Made by a program: the position numbers and the translations under genes. The notes beneath the pieces are model-generated. The model was not told the origin of the DNA, searched no databases, and saw only the letters and a list, made by a program, of their open reading frames with translations. Of a DNA stretch of 64,000 bases, positions 8,961 to 51,386 are shown piece after piece. Numbering within the stretch: the first letter of the stretch is position 1; each line of letters begins with the position of its first letter. The DNA is from Halorussus vallis (lineage in GTDB: Archaea; Halobacteriota; Halobacteria; Halobacteriales; Haladaptataceae): assembly GCF_024138165.1 (NCBI RefSeq), contig NZ_CP100000.1:2914001-2978000 (forward strand). Direction: 5' to 3'.

Positions 8961-9034
8961 GCCGCCTTAGCTCAGACTGGGAGAGCACTCGACTGAAGAT
9001 CGAGCTGTCCCCCGTTCAAATCGGGGAGGCGGCA
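8961..9034 (+). tRNA. tRNA-Phe (GAA)
   Basis: A complete 74-nt cloverleaf: acceptor GCCGCCT pairs with AGGCGGC, the anticodon arm is CTCGA-CTGAAGA-TCGAG with anticodon GAA, the T-arm is CCCCG-TTCAAAT-CGGGG and the discriminator is A. CCA is not encoded. The 3' end is the integration site of the AT-rich element that follows; the T-arm and acceptor half is repeated at 17795-17818. Confidence 0.97.
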
Positions 9035-9035
9035 T
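9012..9035 (+). repeat. attL: 24-bp tRNA-Phe 3'-end direct repeat
   Basis: The last 23 nt of tRNA-Phe plus the next T match 17795-17818 exactly (24 of 24). The abrupt drop in GC content just after this point marks the left edge of the integrated element. Confidence 0.8.
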
Positions 9036-9392
9036 GGCCTTTCTACTCGGACAATATTCGACAGAGAGCGCCGCTTTCCGGCGATTCTCTCGCGCATAGC
9101 CCGATTAGATTTGACTATGATTTCACTCGCGCCCCGACGCCTTCGGGCACTCCATCCTACATTTGACTCGTGAAGCCCTTGTAGTTACTCGTACTCACTC
9201 GCCACTCTCGAAACTCGGAGAAAGCGAATTCATGACCTTGCCTCTCGGTCAGAATCTTATCAGCGGCTCAAGATTGCCGTGAGAGCGATTTCTGCCAGAG
9301 GACTGAGAAAGGTCAGTGAGTCCCTGAATTGGCATCTCGCGCCGCTCACTGAGTTTTAGAATCCCGAGTCCTATGACAGATTCTCAACTTGG
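9036..9392. other. Non-coding left end of the integrated element
   Basis: This 357-bp stretch between attL and the first gene has no convincing reading frame or RNA gene. The base composition changes from host-like to AT-rich within the first 100 bp. Confidence 0.5.
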
Positions 9393-10184
9393 CTATATCT
9401 TTCTACCACGGACATAGTCATCAGTGTCCTCTAAGAGACGCTTGACATCCTCGGATTCAGGGTCTTCTTCGTTCGCATGAGCGCAATCAGCTCGAATATC
9501 TGCTAAGTGCTGAAGATGCTTTTCAGGCGTAGAGTCAATCTCGTCCGCCTCGAATAGCTTCTGAGCCAAAGTCGAAATTCCGTCGTTGTAGTTGTAGTTG
9601 ATTTCTGAACTGGCATTTTTGCACTTCATCAAAAGGTATCTTTCTAATGCAACCCCTGCAACGACTCCACTAGCGCGGACTTCATCATCAAATAGCCTTC
9701 TCGCAGTCTCTAACTCATCTTGAGACACTTCCTCGGAAATCTGTCGTCGAACTCTTACCTCCTCAATTCGAACCTTTGATGGGATGGAACGGAGAATACT
9801 CTGTTGAGAATCAAAATCAGAATTTTGAGCATTCAGCACTTTCTGAATATTTGAACGTGCCTTTTTGTCAAGCTGTAGCCTCTCTTTGAATTCCCTATAG
9901 TGCTCTTCGAAGTCGTCTTGGCGATTCGGAAGGTATTCTGCAATCAGAGGTGTGGCGGAGTTATACCAGACTTCGTAATTCCGAAGCGCCTCTCGCTGAA
10001 GTTCCTCCAATTCATCAGATGGCGTATCCCAAAATACGCCGGGTATCGTTACCATGCTACCAGAACTACCGGACGAATGGGTTTCTATCCGATTAAAAAA
10101 TTCCGTATACAGGTCTTCTATTTCTTCTGCATCTTCCTCAAGTCGGTCGAGTTCCTCCTCAACAGCATCACTAAGAGCGGTCAT
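9393..10184 (-). CDS. HEPN-like domain protein
   Basis: A 263-residue protein, mostly helical. Residues 1-30 are acidic and coiled-coil-like. Residues about 55-165 are helical with no recognised family. Residues about 165-263 resemble HEPN/DUF4145-type domains and carry R231-ADCA-H236, an Rx4H motif of the kind that forms the RNase active site in HEPN toxins and defence effectors. The match comes from motif and helix pattern only. It is the first gene inside the element, with a TATA-like sequence about 28 nt upstream of its ATG. No antitoxin-like partner is adjacent. Confidence 0.5.
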   Translation of the reverse strand: MTALSDAVEEELDRLEEDAEEIEDLYTEFFNRIETHSSGSSGSMVTIPGVFWDTPSDELEELQREALRNYEVWYNSATPLIAEYLPNRQDDFEEHYREFKERLQLDKKARSNIQKVLNAQNSDFDSQQSILRSIPSKVRIEEVRVRRQISEEVSQDELETARRLFDDEVRASGVVAGVALERYLLMKCKNASSEINYNYNDGISTLAQKLFEADEIDSTPEKHLQHLADIRADCAHANEEDPESEDVKRLLEDTDDYVRGRKI

Positions 10185-11407: not shown

Positions 11408-11509
11408 GTGAGACGCATCAAGCCAGTTTTTTCGAGAGAAACTGGCCTCTAATCACAATGAATTGCACAACTGCTTCGCAGTATAAGTGAACGCTTGAGA
11501 AGGAACGGA

Positions 11510-13303
11510 ATGAACATGAACAAGAACACTAATCGACCAAATAAATCTGTTGAGGAACCGCTCAAGACGGATGGCGACATCCAAATGGAAACGATTCGAG
11601 ACGAGACTGAAGAGCGAATTGAATATGCTCTCAGTTCTAAGAAGTCGGTTTTAATTGACTCACCACCAAACAGTGGCAAGACCACATCAACTTTCAAAGT
11701 CGCTAAACAGACTGATACTCCGATTACGTATCTGACCGCCCGTAACGACCTCTATGACCAAGCAATCAGTATTTGCAAGGAACTTGGTCTTTCACCGAAG
11801 CAAGTACCTAGTCCACATCGGGATTGCCCTTCCTTTAGAGGCGACGAAGGAAGCCAGGTGGAAAAGAAGGCAAAAGAACTCTATCAGTTGGGGGTGAGCG
11901 CAAAAAGAATTCATTCGGAACTGAATCTCCCTTGTTCTCCGGACTGCAAGTATCTGGAGATGCGGTCAGACCTCGATTCTGAATCTGCTCAGGTCATCAT
12001 TGGCAACTATAAACATGCCTATATCGAGTCGATTCTCGAAAATCGAGTCGTCGTTATGGATGAGTTCCCCGGGGATGCTTTTGAGACCGAATTTAGTCAG
12101 GTTTCTAAGACCATATCACAATTCTTGGAGGAGAAAGAAGGTTTGCCTTACGATGAATTCACCGACCTAATAGAGACAAGAGATGGAACTGACGAAACTC
12201 AAAAGGCCTTATCTTGGTTTTTTAATTATGGAGCAGATGAAGACGTTACTTCTGTTCTTAATAAAGAGGAGTACAATCGATATCACACGTTAGCACCTTT
12301 CCTTTGTTTCGCCTTGCTCAGAATGAAGAATCTCGGGAATGGATTTGAAGCGACAGGAACTGAGAAGTTCGAGGATTATGGTATCGAGCGTAAGCGTATT
12401 GCAGTTCATAATCGAAAGGAAGGGTGGATGACAGTTCTCACGCCACCTGATTTTTCTTCTGCTCTCGGCCTTGTTTGTCTTGATGGCACTCCCACAACCG
12501 AACTTTGGGAATTAGTGACGGATGAGGAGTTAGATATCTGGACAATTCTTGACGATGCTGACAAAGATTCATATATCAAGGATGCAATGGGAGTGACCAT
12601 CAAACAAGCAGGCCAAGGAACCAAGCCCTACTCCGGTGGGAATATCGCCGCTAATAGGGACGCTGGCTTATTTATGAAGATTGAGGTCGAAGAAGGGCAG
12701 AGTCCCGCTTTAATCACTCCAAAGAAGGCGCTAAAGAAGTATGAGAAAAATGGGATTGTAGAACAGAACCAACGCACTAAGAACTTTGCAGAAATACACA
12801 GCTCAAATGATTTCGCCAATGAACCATTAGGCGTTATTTCCGGTTCTCCTCATCCTAGAAGGGCTATCCTCCAAAAGTGGGCCGCGTATTTCGGAGAAGG
12901 AATAGAACCGGAGGGGAGAGGGACAAAGAAGAGTTTTGGCGAACTTGGTAATAAGATATACCGTCACTTCTCTCATCATCAAGTCCTGCAAGCGATTCTT
13001 CGATTCGGTCGAGGGGATGCTGAAGCAACAGTCTATCTCAATACTCTCGCTCTTCCGAATTGGTTGACCCCTGATTCTCATGTCGACGTTCAACCCTTTA
13101 ATAGCGAGAACAGGCGTCAGGTGAGTCAGATATTGCAGGAGCGAGGTCAAAACGGGGCGAAGAAAGAATTACTGGAAAAAGAAGTTGGCTGCTCGAAACG
13201 AACTATAACGAAGATTTTGAGAGATTTTGAGGATGATAATATTGTTAAAAAGCATGAAGGGATAGGACGCCACGGCGCAAATATTTACGTGTGGGATATA
13301 TAA
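11510..13303 (+). CDS. P-loop helicase-like protein with C-terminal winged helix
   Basis: A 597-residue protein, probably the replication or maintenance ATPase of the element. Walker A is DSPPNSGKTT (about 50-59) and Walker B is VVVMDEF (about 180-186). Four cysteines (about 89, 106, 142, 146) lie between them, possibly a metal or Fe-S site as in some SF2 helicases. A late SF2-like region includes LQAILRFGRGDAEATVYLN. Residues about 535-597 form a winged helix (GCSKRTITKILRDFEDDNIV). I chose the ATG at 11510 because TATAAG lies 27 nt upstream; a TTG at 11495 would add five residues. The assignment to replication is inference. Confidence 0.65.
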   Translation: MNMNKNTNRPNKSVEEPLKTDGDIQMETIRDETEERIEYALSSKKSVLIDSPPNSGKTTSTFKVAKQTDTPITYLTARNDLYDQAISICKELGLSPKQVPSPHRDCPSFRGDEGSQVEKKAKELYQLGVSAKRIHSELNLPCSPDCKYLEMRSDLDSESAQVIIGNYKHAYIESILENRVVVMDEFPGDAFETEFSQVSKTISQFLEEKEGLPYDEFTDLIETRDGTDETQKALSWFFNYGADEDVTSVLNKEEYNRYHTLAPFLCFALLRMKNLGNGFEATGTEKFEDYGIERKRIAVHNRKEGWMTVLTPPDFSSALGLVCLDGTPTTELWELVTDEELDIWTILDDADKDSYIKDAMGVTIKQAGQGTKPYSGGNIAANRDAGLFMKIEVEEGQSPALITPKKALKKYEKNGIVEQNQRTKNFAEIHSSNDFANEPLGVISGSPHPRRAILQKWAAYFGEGIEPEGRGTKKSFGELGNKIYRHFSHHQVLQAILRFGRGDAEATVYLNTLALPNWLTPDSHVDVQPFNSENRRQVSQILQERGQNGAKKELLEKEVGCSKRTITKILRDFEDDNIVKKHEGIGRHGANIYVWDI

Positions 13304-13657: not shown

Positions 13658-15205
13658 TTATTCCTTGTATTCTTCCAATGAATACAGAGAATCGCCAGTA
13701 CTTCCAACGTAAATGAAATTCTCTCTGACAATTGGTGCTGCTTCAACAGAACCACCTATTGCATACTCTCTCATTCTGTTTCCGGCTTGAGCGTCAATGA
13801 CGTGAACATTACCGTTATGACTGCCGAGATAGAGTCTGTTTTTAGATACTACGGCACCTGAAACGCTTCCAGTAGACTGGAACTTCCATTTTTCACTTCC
13901 ATCATTTGCATTCAGGGCAAAGAGCGACCAACTACTAGGAACAAGTATGGTATCATCAACAACGGTTATCAAATTATTATAAACTCCATTTTTTAAGCTT
14001 GTACGCCACCTCTGGGTACCATTCTCTGAATTAACTGCATAGAATTTATCAGACGTAGTCCCAAAGTACACGGTACTCTCAGTTACTGCAGGAGAGCATT
14101 GAACTTGGTCATAAACTTTAAATTGCCACTTCTCACTTCCGTCTTTTGTATCAACGGCATAGAATGTATCGCCTAAACTTCCGAAGTAAATAACCCCATT
14201 TTTCACAATAGGTGTTGAAATAATTCCGCCTTTAGCTTTATAACTCCATCTCTTTCTCCCATTTTCTGCATTTAATGCATACATTGTATCACCAATGCTC
14301 CCTACGTAAATTGCGTCTTTATGGACTACCGGAGCTGTCCCTCCATACCCGTTCGTTTTGAAAGACCAACGTTTCTTGCCGTTATTAGCATTTAGCGCGT
14401 AAACATTTAAGCCACCTGTGTTCACATATATAGTATCTTTTCTAATTCCGAGAGACGTTTCAATAGGTTCTTCTGTATCAAATTCCCATTTCTTCTCTCC
14501 ATTATGTCTATTGATAGAATAAACTCTGCCATCTTTGCTTCCGATATAAATATAATCTTCAGAAACAACAGGGGATGCTACAATATCATGATTGGTTTCA
14601 AATGACCACTGCTTCCGAATTTGAAAGCCGTCTTCATTATTTGAATTGCTTGAAAGAGCCCCCAGAGCAGCGACAGCCGTTAACCCTACGGCTCCGTATT
14701 TTAGTGGCTTTCTAAGAAAGTCTCTTCTTGAATCAGATTGTTCATTATCTTCGGGAGTCTCCTCAGCTACTCTTTCTTTTGCTGTTTCGGATGAATCCGA
14801 GTCAAATCCATTATCAAAAATGGCCTCAGATGACGTTGTCTTGTGGACTAAATTCTGAAGTCCGTGCTTCTGAAGAAATGTTCGGAGACGACTTTCATTT
14901 ACGCATTTCACTCCTGTTTCCTTAGCAATTTGAATAGCTTTATCCTCAAAGCCGCCAGTAGAAACGCAATACGCGGCGTTGAATCCTTTTCTCTTCGCCA
15001 TCTTAGAAAGGGTCTTTAATCCCTCAGCAGAGACAATCTTTGTCCTGACCCAGACTAACTCCTTTTTTGAGTTTTGTCTGTCCTTCTTTGCGAGAACAAA
15101 GGTTTCAGAACCTTGCTTGGAGATTTTAGTTTGATAACCTCTCTCTTCCCAGAGCCTCATGACGATACCAGCTAGCCCTTCTTTTTTCACTTTCTCAATG
15201 CCCAT
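13658..15205 (-). CDS. Degenerate Mrr-like nuclease domain fused through a membrane segment to a PQQ beta-propeller
   Basis: A 515-residue three-part protein. Residues about 8-118 look like a restriction-endonuclease/Mrr fold (LWEERGYQTKISKQGSETFV, then VWVRTK, then NAAYCVSTGGFEDKAIQIAK). The usual GIDV aspartate is replaced (ETFV) and the Q/E-x-K site reads R-T-K, so cleavage is doubtful. An acidic linker follows. SRRDFLRK (159-166) with a hydrophobic stretch (about 171-185) forms a Tat-like signal anchor, but internally placed. Residues about 195-512 are seven or more PQQ-type propeller repeats (VYALNANNGKKRWSFKT and similar). The propeller is probably outside and the nuclease-like domain inside. 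A sensor or exclusion role is conjecture. Confidence 0.7.
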   Translation of the reverse strand: MGIEKVKKEGLAGIVMRLWEERGYQTKISKQGSETFVLAKKDRQNSKKELVWVRTKIVSAEGLKTLSKMAKRKGFNAAYCVSTGGFEDKAIQIAKETGVKCVNESRLRTFLQKHGLQNLVHKTTSSEAIFDNGFDSDSSETAKERVAEETPEDNEQSDSRRDFLRKPLKYGAVGLTAVAALGALSSNSNNEDGFQIRKQWSFETNHDIVASPVVSEDYIYIGSKDGRVYSINRHNGEKKWEFDTEEPIETSLGIRKDTIYVNTGGLNVYALNANNGKKRWSFKTNGYGGTAPVVHKDAIYVGSIGDTMYALNAENGRKRWSYKAKGGIISTPIVKNGVIYFGSLGDTFYAVDTKDGSEKWQFKVYDQVQCSPAVTESTVYFGTTSDKFYAVNSENGTQRWRTSLKNGVYNNLITVVDDTILVPSSWSLFALNANDGSEKWKFQSTGSVSGAVVSKNRLYLGSHNGNVHVIDAQAGNRMREYAIGGSVEAAPIVRENFIYVGSTGDSLYSLEEYKE

Positions 15206-15518: not shown

Positions 15519-16363
15519 ATGCCGAAGGCAAAGTTCAGATTCGGGGAGTTAGAGGCTGATGAGGGGATTCCATCTATGGATGCAATCGCTGAGGTGGTAG
15601 AAGGGAATGGAATTTTCGGCCCGACTGGCGACCAACGCGGTGTCCAACTTCGCACTGATTCTGACGAATACGTAGTCGGTGATGACTATATCTTCATTCG
15701 CTTTGTAAAGGAAGTTACCGAAGAGCGAAAAGAGATAGATGGCAACGAGGTGACTATCGGTGACAGTCACATTGCAAGGATTATGCGATTTCTCTTGACC
15801 CGCGACGGGTCATACGCCTTCGAGACGACGTCTGGCGTGTACGATAAGGATGCAATTGACTATCTGATTGGTGAGGACTCGGATGAGTTCGGAATCGACT
15901 TCCAATGCGACCAGTATAATCGATTTACTCGGGAACAAATGAGAGAGTTCTACGAACAGTCGTTCCGAGTTCGTGGTCTAAAGTTAGAAGACATCGGTGA
16001 ACGCGACTCTGAAGAAACCTCTGTCGAAGAGGATATCGCAGACCATGTGGACCGTGCTGGTGAAAATGCCGTTCGAGCGCGGTGTTCAGCACCGGTTCAC
16101 AGGACAACAATCTCAGTGGCCCTGGTATCATCGACGGGTTCGCTCGCCTCTCCGAGGTAAAGTACATCCGTATGAAGGACTCGGAAGGACAAATCCGAGA
16201 GGCCAACCGAAACGGTCGTTACACCTTCTCGTATCCTGCCGACCTTGACTTAGCGGACCAGGCTCAGCGCGTTCGGGATATCCTCTCGACTGTCACCGAT
16301 GGAATGGTTCACGAAGACGAAGAAGAACCGGAGGAGGCGGCTCCGGCACCGGCAACCGATTAG
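15519..16363 (+). pseudogene. Element hypothetical gene disrupted by a frameshift
   Basis: The first part (ATG at 15519, 28 nt after a TATA-like box) encodes about 180 residues of an acidic soluble protein (KAKFRFGELEADEGIPSMDA...). Around 16060-16085 the coding sense passes to another frame: ...DRAGENAVRA in frame one continues naturally as VFSTGSQDNNLSGPGIIDGF in frame two, ending APATD at 16363. The tail of frame one past this point has no protein character. A separate GTG start at 16082 for the second half is possible, as is a sequencing indel. The family is unknown. The stop overlaps the convergent integrase stop. Confidence 0.6.
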
Positions 16364-17385
16364 ATGTTGTCGAGGTAGCCCCGTCGCTGTTCGACTTTCA
16401 CCTCCTCATCTCGTTTGTCGTAGTGCTTATCCAAAACATCTTGCCCAACATTCATTCGGTCGCTGACAACTTTCTCAGGCACGTCCTCAGTAAGAAAATG
16501 AGTAATCGAACCGCGTCGAATCGCATGCGGTGAAACGTTGACCGGGCATTTGCAATAGCCGGGATACTTCCCGGCCTCACAGTCATCTGGTTCACGTCCC
16601 TTCGGGCATTCATCCCCGTAGTAGCAGGGACGAGTGACCATGTAGACGGCATCCCGTATGCTTGACCGATTCATCCGCCCATTCCGGCTTGTTAGGAGTG
16701 GTTTGCGCCCATAGTCATCCTCCACATCATGGCGATGATTCTCATCCCAGTCTTCGATAGCCCGACAGACCTCGGCATTCAGCGCAACCATTCTTTCTCC
16801 TTCTTTTCCGTTCTTCAGGGGTGTCCCTGTTTTTGGACGGTGGTGAAGTGCCAAGCGTTCAGCCTCCCCGTCATAATCATCGATATCAAGGGAGTAGAGA
16901 GCGCCAAGACGTATCCCCGTGTGCCAAAGAATTTCTAAGATAACGTGAGAGCGAGAAGCGTACTCGAACTTCCTAAGATATTCAAGAAGAGCCTCGGCAT
17001 CGCCTGCATTGAGAATAGTTTCGCTCTGTTCGTCATTCTTACTGAGTGTCGGCATAAGGGCCTCGAACTTCTCGTGAAGCCCCTGTTCGACTGCGTCGAT
17101 AGATTCACACCACCGAATGAAGACTCGAAGCGCATCAAGTTGGCCCTCAAGCGTAATTGGTTTCAAATCACCGTCATCCCGACGCCATGTTTTGAACTTC
17201 TGGAGCTTGCGTCCAGAGAGGTTATTCATGTTCTCAATTCCCTCAAACCCCTGACACCACCGGATGAAATGTTTGAGTCGGTAGTGATATCCGTCAAGCG
17301 TTGACTGTGAGACCTCGTTCTTTCGCGCGTTAAGATACATCTCCTTCGCTTCTGCCGGCGAAATTGGTTGAAGTCCGGAGGTCAT
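16360..17385 (-). CDS. Tyrosine recombinase/integrase
   Basis: A 341-residue phage-integrase family protein. The N-terminal SAM-like core-binding domain spans about 10-115. The catalytic domain shows the Arg of HTGIRLGALYSL, the H-x-x-R of HAIRRGSITHFL and the Tyr nucleophile of LDKHYDKRD near the C-terminus. A Cys-rich insert (CYYGDECPKGREPDDCEAGK, then YCKC) before the HxxR box may bind zinc, as in several haloarchaeal integrases. It sits at the right end of the element, close to the tRNA-Phe repeats, so it is very likely the enzyme that inserted the element into tRNA-Phe. Confidence 0.93.
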   Translation of the reverse strand: MTSGLQPISPAEAKEMYLNARKNEVSQSTLDGYHYRLKHFIRWCQGFEGIENMNNLSGRKLQKFKTWRRDDGDLKPITLEGQLDALRVFIRWCESIDAVEQGLHEKFEALMPTLSKNDEQSETILNAGDAEALLEYLRKFEYASRSHVILEILWHTGIRLGALYSLDIDDYDGEAERLALHHRPKTGTPLKNGKEGERMVALNAEVCRAIEDWDENHRHDVEDDYGRKPLLTSRNGRMNRSSIRDAVYMVTRPCYYGDECPKGREPDDCEAGKYPGYCKCPVNVSPHAIRRGSITHFLTEDVPEKVVSDRMNVGQDVLDKHYDKRDEEVKVEQRRGYLDNI

Positions 17386-17619: not shown

Positions 17620-17678
17620 GACCGGGAGAGCACTTTCTTGCAAATGAGCTGTCCCCGGTTCAAATCCGGGAGGCGGCA
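17620..17678 (+). pseudogene. Divergent partial tRNA-Phe copy (pseudo-tRNA / att remnant)
   Basis: The sequence from the D-arm (GGGAGAGCAC) to the discriminator base aligns with tRNA-Phe, but the anticodon arm is degraded (no GAA loop) and the 5' acceptor strand is missing. The T-stem differs from the intact gene by a paired change (CCCGG/CCGGG against CCCCG/CGGGG), so base pairing is kept. It lies 235 nt from the integrase start and could be the attachment sequence brought from another host. Confidence 0.65.
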
Positions 17679-17794
17679 TACCTTTTCCGCGACGCTATTT
17701 CGCCGAGCGGAAGGTCTGTCACCCGACCCGATTTGAGCCTGGAAGTCGCAGTCCCGGAACGGCTCTTCACGCCGCACGCCCGGAACGTCTTTCT

Positions 17795-17818
17795 CCGTTC
17801 AAATCGGGGAGGCGGCAT
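17795..17818 (+). repeat. attR: 24-bp tRNA-Phe 3'-end direct repeat
   Basis: Exact copy of 9012-9035. The sequence after it is host-like in composition. This is probably the displaced native 3' end of tRNA-Phe. Confidence 0.75.
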
Positions 17819-17922
17819 ACTTTCTGCCGACGCCACGTGAGAGCGTAGCGAACCCGTCTCACCGGTTCGACGAGGACCGTTCTGCCGGACGAGAGGAACA
17901 GAACGGTTTCGTCACCCAACCG
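17819..17922. other. Host sequence after attR, no gene
   Basis: A short GC-rich stretch ends the att region. Its first 35 nt (ACTTTCTGCCGACG and on) resemble the sequence after the decayed repeat at 18683, which suggests duplication of the tRNA downstream flank. Confidence 0.4.
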
Positions 17923-50372: not shown

Positions 50373-50533
50373 GATTCGACGGACGGTTCCCTCGGAGTTA
50401 CTCCTTGGGGCGCGGGTACGAGAAACCGGACGAACGTCGGACGTGACTCGAACTCGAGAACGCTGTCCCTCGATGAGTCTTCGACAGATATTCGATGAAG
50501 CTGCTCGCTCGCCGGTTAGTTCGTTGCAGAAAG

Positions 50534-50606
50534 CGCCCGAGGCGGGATTTGAACCCGCGTCACAACCGTGACAGGGTTGTATGATGGGCCACTACACCAC
50601 CCGGGC
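50534..50606 (-). tRNA. tRNA-Asp (GTC), copy 1
   Basis: A complete 73-nt cloverleaf on the minus strand: acceptor GCCCGGG with CTCGGGC, anticodon loop CTGTCAC (GTC), T-arm CGGG-TTCAAAT-CCCG and discriminator G. It is identical to the copy at 51314-51386, and identity extends 10 nt upstream of the tRNA 5' end. CCA is not encoded. Confidence 0.97.
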
Positions 50607-50687
50607 TTTCGAACGCATCTCTACGTATTCCCCGCCCTTATTAAGCAGTGTCGGTTTCGTCCACCATTGGTAGCTGATGGCGTGGGT

Positions 50688-51104
50688 CTAATACGGGATC
50701 TCCCCGGTGAACTCGTACTCCGTCGCCCAGTTGATGGAAGGGTGGGGTATTTCGGCGTCGAAGCGGAGTTCCATCTTCTGTTCGGTCGCGTCGTCGATGC
50801 CGATCCAGTACATCTTCCCGTTTCCCGGATATCGGACGAAGAAGGCGTCGACTTCCCCGAGGTACGTACTCTCGTGATACTCCCCTTCTCTGGTCGTCTG
50901 TGAGTGTGTGTTGAACCGCATCGTATTCGCCTTGTTCTTCCACGCGGTCTTACACTGAATTCGGAGTAAGTGACCGTCGTCGTCAACGACAAGGTCGTAC
51001 CTGTCGTTGTCCCCGAATGGAACTGAGACACTGTATCCTGCCGAAAGGAGTTCGTAAATCGCCTTCGCCTCCGTTTCGTCTCCAGTGTGCTTCGAGTTCG
51101 TCAT
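50688..51104 (-). CDS. PD-(D/E)XK endonuclease-like protein (group I intron endonuclease type)
   Basis: A 138-residue small nuclease. GDETEAKAIYELLSAGYSVS (E10/E12) is followed by DRYDLVVDDD (D37) and LLRIQCKTAW (Q50-C51-K52), the full D...QxK set. The layout matches the PD-(D/E)XK endonucleases associated with group I introns. The C-terminal half includes FFVRYPGNGKMYWIGIDDAT. It is flanked by two identical tRNA-Asp genes 780 bp apart, which suggests that this segment moved into a tRNA-Asp locus. There is no integrase within the segment. Confidence 0.72.
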   Translation of the reverse strand: MTNSKHTGDETEAKAIYELLSAGYSVSVPFGDNDRYDLVVDDDGHLLRIQCKTAWKNKANTMRFNTHSQTTREGEYHESTYLGEVDAFFVRYPGNGKMYWIGIDDATEQKMELRFDAEIPHPSINWATEYEFTGEIPY

Positions 51105-51313
51105 CTCCCCCTTTTCGGCTCTTTCTCCGTGATAAATAGTCGCCCTCGTCGTAGACGACTCACGTCTGTACGGTGGTGGTGTCGTTCTACTATTCGGAAA
51201 CTACGTCAACAGAAGGCGTCTAGGACGAGGCCCAATTTGGTCCAAGGATAACCTTGGATTCCGACACTCGCTCGAAGCTTCGCTCCTCGTTCGGAAGTTG
51301 AAATCGAAAGGAA

Positions 51314-51386
51314 CGCCCGAGGCGGGATTTGAACCCGCGTCACAACCGTGACAGGGTTGTATGATGGGCCACTACACCACCCGGGC
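51314..51386 (-). tRNA. tRNA-Asp (GTC), copy 2
   Basis: Identical in sequence to the copy at 50534-50606, with the same anticodon GTC, arms and discriminator. An 83-bp exact direct repeat (50534-50616 and 51314-51396) is formed by the two genes with their 5' flank. It is preceded on the minus strand by a CTTAAG TATA-like box near 51420. Confidence 0.97.

Follow-up and report, generated by a model that had tools for sequence, protein, structure and literature searches.

The locus raises the question of what a protein with a nuclease-like domain at one end and a beta-propeller at the other could do for the mobile element that carries it. In the window, i.e., the whole stretch of 64,000 nucleotides that was analyzed, a 515-aa open reading frame at 13658-15205 (minus strand) starts with ATG and encodes a fusion of a dead Mrr-like domain, an acidic linker, a Tat-like segment, and a PQQ propeller. 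The catalytically degenerate Mrr_cat or restriction endonuclease (REase) fold domain spans residues 4-117 (14855-15196, minus strand, as for all parts of the fusion). It is followed by a predicted disordered acidic linker at residues 118-158 (14732-14854), by a twin-arginine motif (SRRDFLRK) with a weakly hydrophobic, uncharged stretch at residues 159-189 (14639-14731) that may be a signal or signal anchor, and by an eight-bladed PQQ/BamB-like beta-propeller at residues 196-515 (13661-14620). All parts that the initial annotation had named for this frame were located as described. A division into two separate genes by an internal start codon was ruled out, as no ATG lies near the Tat motif and the preceding Val is encoded by GTA. 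A lipoprotein was ruled out as well, with no Cys following the h-region and cysteines at positions 80, 101, and 370 only.

The nuclease fold that had been proposed for the N-terminus was recovered by the profile search and by the structure prediction suggested at that time. Pfam Mrr_cat (PF04471) matched residues 4-110 with 27.2 bits for the whole protein and 30.6 bits when the first 142 residues were searched alone, both above the curated cut-off of 21 bits. The AlphaFold model of the domain, built on an eight-row alignment, had REase topology with the alpha-beta-beta-beta-alpha-beta core (pLDDT 86, pTM 0.80). The nearest structures to this model were AF1548, EndoMS, and AspBHI together with MspJI, with Z scores of 13.9, 11.6, and 11.2, respectively, and lower matches were found to FokI, Rpb5, and the N-domain of YqgP (PDB 6r0j, Z 7.9).

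Intact haloarchaeal Mrr proteins with the motifs GIDVVA and LIQAKRY (e.g., L046, L053, and L056) were used as references for the active site. In the profile alignment, the helix Glu of these proteins corresponded to A12, the Asp to F36, and the Q-x-K to W52-x-R54 of the fusion. MAFFT gave a different register, in which L38 takes the place of the Asp and R54 that of the Gln, with K56 as a candidate for the former Lys. Both registers lack the catalytic acid and Gln; the loss of the acid, which had been read from the sequence initially, is firm, and the catalytic Lys is probably lost too. The signature of active Mrr-type nucleases, D ... (Q/E)xK, was not found in the domain, which is probably a non-catalytic nuclease fold. 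F36, V37, L50, and W52 were invariant among the fusion protein and six chromosomal relatives, so the F36/W52 replacement is a shared and old one and not a recent accident. This points to a non-catalytic role that has been kept, and away from random decay.

The N-terminal domain has a net charge of +13, with 21.6% K/R and 9.9% D/E, while the compared domains of relatives ranged from -20 to +2 and the remaining open reading frames of the element were net acidic. Such a charge is unusual for a haloarchaeon and is the sole sequence feature that favors nucleic-acid binding by this domain. AT-rich codon bias is an incomplete account of it, since the neighbors on the element share the bias.

Acidic residues (D/E) made up 12 of the 41 positions of the linker. 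SRRDFLRK at residues 159-166, followed by the uncharged stretch at 170-190, presents the S/T-R-R-x-F-L-K motif before a hydrophobic stretch as in Tat substrates, and both together occurred in none of 20,000 shuffles. TIGR01409 reached 12.2 bits on the segment against a cut-off of 16.7, a score that may be lowered by the internal position. Hydropathy was low with a KD of 1.26 over 19 residues, compared to 2.4-3.2 in the chromosomal relatives, and no confident helix was modeled by AlphaFold at this segment. Export of the propeller is likely, presumably by the Tat route. Of the acidic linker and Tat-like signal anchor at residues 159-185 in the initial annotation, the linker and the RR motif stood, while a lasting membrane anchor is something that we infer; the weak hydrophobicity suits Tat, and the propeller could be cleaved off. 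An RR motif precedes the propeller in many PQQ proteins of this genome and of related genomes, and the Mrr domain therefore appears to have been added before an ordinary Tat-exported propeller.

PQQ-type propeller models matched residues 210-511 far above their cut-offs, with 165.7 bits for PF13360 against 27.6. The profile match and the closed propeller place this part in the PQQ-like superfamily (PF13360/PF01011). According to Foldseek, the propeller model fits the design Cake8 (TM 0.92 of target), with BamB next. Because Cake8 is eight-bladed, eight blades were assigned, which narrows the earlier estimate of seven or more. The BamB equivalog TIGR03300 scored 161.8 bits, below its threshold of 285.2. 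To our knowledge, the BAM complex is absent from haloarchaea. The AfsK model NF053615 matched the propeller region only, with an E-value of 3e-44 and 151.7 bits against 1300.

The fusion gene is located on an element of 8.6 kb with about 44-50% GC, in surroundings of roughly 65-70% GC. Its integration target is a tRNA-Phe(GAA) at 8961-9034 (plus strand), and the attachment repeat at the 3' end of this tRNA (9002-9043, plus strand) is 88% identical over 42 nt to a distal repeat at 17646-17687 (plus strand). Past the distal repeat, at 17785-17826, the 3' end of tRNA-Phe is present once more as a partial copy with a 25-nt near-perfect core, possibly from an earlier or a nested integration event. 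The element encodes a tyrosine integrase (16360-17385, minus strand) and, as a core gene, a 602-aa P-loop helicase-like protein with C-terminal winged-helix similarity (11495-13303, plus strand). Integrase, tRNA target, flanking direct repeats, and foreign composition were thus all found, as expected from the initial proposal of a tRNA-integrated element. At the tRNA-Phe end, a 263-aa open reading frame (9393-10184, minus strand) showed sub-threshold similarity to DUF4145. Elsewhere in the window, a local GC dip contains two tRNA-Asp(GTC) genes with a spacing of about 780 bp (50533-51386) and is a possible other integration site.

Downstream of the same tRNA-Phe in a genome of the same genus (G014) lies a copy of the start of the fusion gene that is truncated, interrupted by stops, and has 70% DNA identity. 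Another genome (G023) has an element at tRNA-Phe with an integrase 86% identical to the one described here and a relative of the helicase, and a pentapeptide-repeat membrane protein with a hydrophobic C-terminus in place of the fusion gene. The decayed copy and the element that lacks the gene indicate that the fusion gene is variable cargo of an element family. No intact element-borne copies besides the fusion were found in the sampled genomes. The G023 element (L151:4928-14981) also has a gene resembling small terminases, and a similar integrase with a terminase-like gene was observed in G016 (L152). Both loci resemble remnants of satellites or proviruses.

No known system with this layout had come to mind in the initial annotation, which the survey of homologous fusions contradicted. 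Single-sequence tblastn of genome contigs, plasmids, phages, and viral contigs gave no full-length relative, only matches to the propeller alone or to a bare Mrr domain, or none, and among 34 loci with long open frames adjoining Mrr matches none contained a propeller. A three-member profile was needed to recover a second full fusion, L175 (G038, family f12), with a dead Mrr-like domain, DRRRLL followed by a strong transmembrane segment (TM, KD 2.47), and a PQQ propeller that is 29% identical to the one on the element. It belongs to another family than the host, and its contig is chromosomal, with biotin genes next to the fusion. Four loci of genus g51 (L051, L055, L113, and L114) encode a dead Mrr domain, an acidic linker, and TRREALKK or SRREALKK before a different outer domain, and align with the fusion protein across the linker and the RR motif. 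L040 combines a zinc ribbon, a dead Mrr domain, a PH-like domain, a TM, and an outer part.

Chromosomal proteins with a dead Mrr domain and a membrane segment were near-universal in the family of the host. All 28 sampled genomes of this family matched the dead-domain profile at E 1e-8 or better, a few of the matches being partial or interrupted. The matches were chromosomal and typically on a membrane protein; the members that were read have a dead Mrr domain, an acidic linker, and a strong TM, with a DUF4352 outer domain in the one that was tested. In families f1 and f5, a secreted DUF7827/DUF7282-type gene was located upstream on the same strand in 27 of 37 distinct dead Mrr-TM loci, nearly always adjacent (e.g., L124:4976-7507, L126, and L129). 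Dead Mrr-TM gene and secreted surface-protein gene are a conserved pair in at least two haloarchaeal families. In the phylum-wide sample, all of the matches listed came from the same order, which does not imply absence from others. Intact Mrr proteins formed a separate, well-supported group in the tree, and the fusion grouped with L040 and L052 on long branches that leave its exact kin unsure. Several viral contigs from IMG/VR (L130-L136) encode intact-motif Mrr proteins preceded by hydrophobic segments, which are apparently membrane-anchored with an intact active site.

Known systems resemble the fusion in single parts. The chromosomal dead Mrr-TM-DUF4352 proteins (PF04471 and PF11611; e.g., L038 of the same genome) likewise have an N-terminal degenerate Mrr domain with F and W for Asp and Gln, an acidic linker, one membrane segment, and an outer domain. 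However, their segment is a strong ordinary TM and not a Tat motif, DUF4352 is on the outside, the nuclease-like domain is acidic, and the gene is fixed and often placed behind a surface-protein gene. L175 shares the dead Mrr-like domain, the RR with a hydrophobic segment, and the PQQ propeller, but differs by its strong TM, very short linker, and chromosomal site by biotin genes, and may be an independent fusion event. Inactive REase folds are known to serve as non-catalytic modules in a few settings, namely Rpb5, YqgP, and the iREase domains of conflict systems. The NACHT-associated NA-iREase1 (PF22722), itself an inactive REase domain in such a role, had no match in the fusion protein at E 1 or better and a weak one, below cut-off, on a chromosomal relative (E 0.0018).

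YqgP of Bacillus subtilis uses a cytosolic REase-fold domain to sense Mn2+ and to regulate the cleavage of a membrane protein (PMC7231995). It has in common with the fusion an N-terminal cytosolic REase fold without nuclease role, the placement on a membrane protein, and an extracellular repeat domain. Unlike the fusion, YqgP has a rhomboid protease core, several TMs, an acidic metal-binding surface, and TPR repeats outside, and the likeness is not claimed as sequence kinship. The Pfam search of the fusion gave no rhomboid match, and its single hydrophobic segment is weak. AfsK, a membrane-associated Ser/Thr kinase with a PQQ-repeat propeller (PMC1262709), also has a cytosolic signaling domain before a C-terminal PQQ-like propeller; an active kinase stands where the fusion has a dead nuclease, and no kinase family was found in the fusion by the Pfam search. 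No paper on the dead Mrr-propeller layout was found in the open-access literature.

A two-sided membrane receptor or tether, with the dead nuclease fold inside and the exported propeller outside as cargo of the tRNA-Phe element, is the explanation that we favor, with about even chances of being correct. The ribosome would make a cytosolic Mrr-type REase-fold domain with a replaced active site, followed by the flexible acidic linker and an internal twin-arginine signal that would send the C-terminal propeller across the membrane. The Tat-like segment would remain in the membrane as an anchor, and the propeller would bind an envelope ligand or partner. The dead fold would serve as a non-catalytic module in the cytosol, where it would bind a ligand, protein, or nucleic acid, and would either report the outside state or tether a partner to the membrane. 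We infer the communication between the two ends, and what each of them would bind. This explanation is preferred because the anatomy points to a two-sided protein and because YqgP is the nearest precedent for the inside and AfsK for the outside. The predicted layout recurs in L175, the g51 loci, L040, and the chromosomal dead Mrr-TM-DUF4352 proteins, which supports it, as does the linkage of the chromosomal relatives to envelope genes. The weak segment, the TIGR01409 score, and the missing helix speak against a lasting anchor, and the propeller might be cleaved off; the single intact element-borne copy in the sampled genomes also counts against this explanation.

Four other explanations were weighed against a receptor or tether. 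The propeller could meet a virus or surface cue while the inner domain holds or recognizes DNA at the membrane, i.e., a surface-to-DNA or superinfection-exclusion device, which we regard as rather unlikely. The charge of +13, set against nearly all tested relatives and the other element proteins, which are net acidic, argues for it, as do the DNA enzymes among the nearest solved folds and the status of the gene as variable cargo that the G023 element at tRNA-Phe lacks. However, PADLOC returned no defense model beyond weak REase-domain similarity, relatives with the same altered pocket are acidic and tied to an envelope gene, and the second full fusion is chromosomal. Superinfection exclusion is possible on the basis of element context and positive charge. 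A comparably low probability was given to a YqgP-like role, in which the dead fold senses a metal or small ligand or acts as an adaptor for a membrane partner, e.g., a transporter or protease, with client proteins bound outside by the propeller. The role of the YqgP domain as a Mn2+ sensor beside an extracellular repeat domain (PMC7231995), the match of 6r0j to the model, and the aromatic F36 and W52 in the old active site are in line with it, but a Z score of 7.9 is one that common arrangements also reach, the element has no recognized gene for a rhomboid or transporter, and metals bind an acidic surface in YqgP while the domain of the fusion is basic.

The remaining two explanations deny the domains a joint function. 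An ordinary propeller with a passenger would be exported by Tat and cut by signal peptidase near ALS/S, leaving the dead domain inside. A weak h-region is typical of cleavable Tat signals, and Tat-like signals are common on exported PQQ proteins in these genomes. The dead domain recurs before membrane segments whose outer domains are of several kinds, and L175 has a strong TM; both argue against the passenger, which we consider improbable, slightly more so than the two preceding explanations. A decaying gene, with the N-domain as a restriction-enzyme relic without present role, is very improbable: the truncated relative at the same tRNA-Phe and the lost catalytic residues would fit, but all 515 codons are open, the N-domain folds with good confidence, and a conserved chromosomal family has the same replacements in its pocket.

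The fusion layout is not unique, but belongs to a wider haloarchaeal theme of predicted dead nuclease domains on the inner face of the membrane, which are probably sensors or tethers and not DNA cutters. Tentatively, and with less confidence than the receptor or tether itself, the haloarchaeal dead Mrr domains may be the cytosolic half of a single-pass receptor family, with varied outer halves (DUF4352, OB-like, or PQQ propeller) and, for some of the receptors, insertion via an internal Tat signal; one member would have been captured by a mobile element and repurposed with a basic, DNA-binding inner domain. An internal Tat signal behind a folded cytosolic domain offers a chance to test Tat insertion in N-in orientation. 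For many of these genes, a restriction-endonuclease label given from the domain match alone would be misleading. The haloarchaea appear to have combined inner-face dead REase domains with several exported domains, the PQQ propeller at least twice, and this theme is wider and more interesting than the single fusion.
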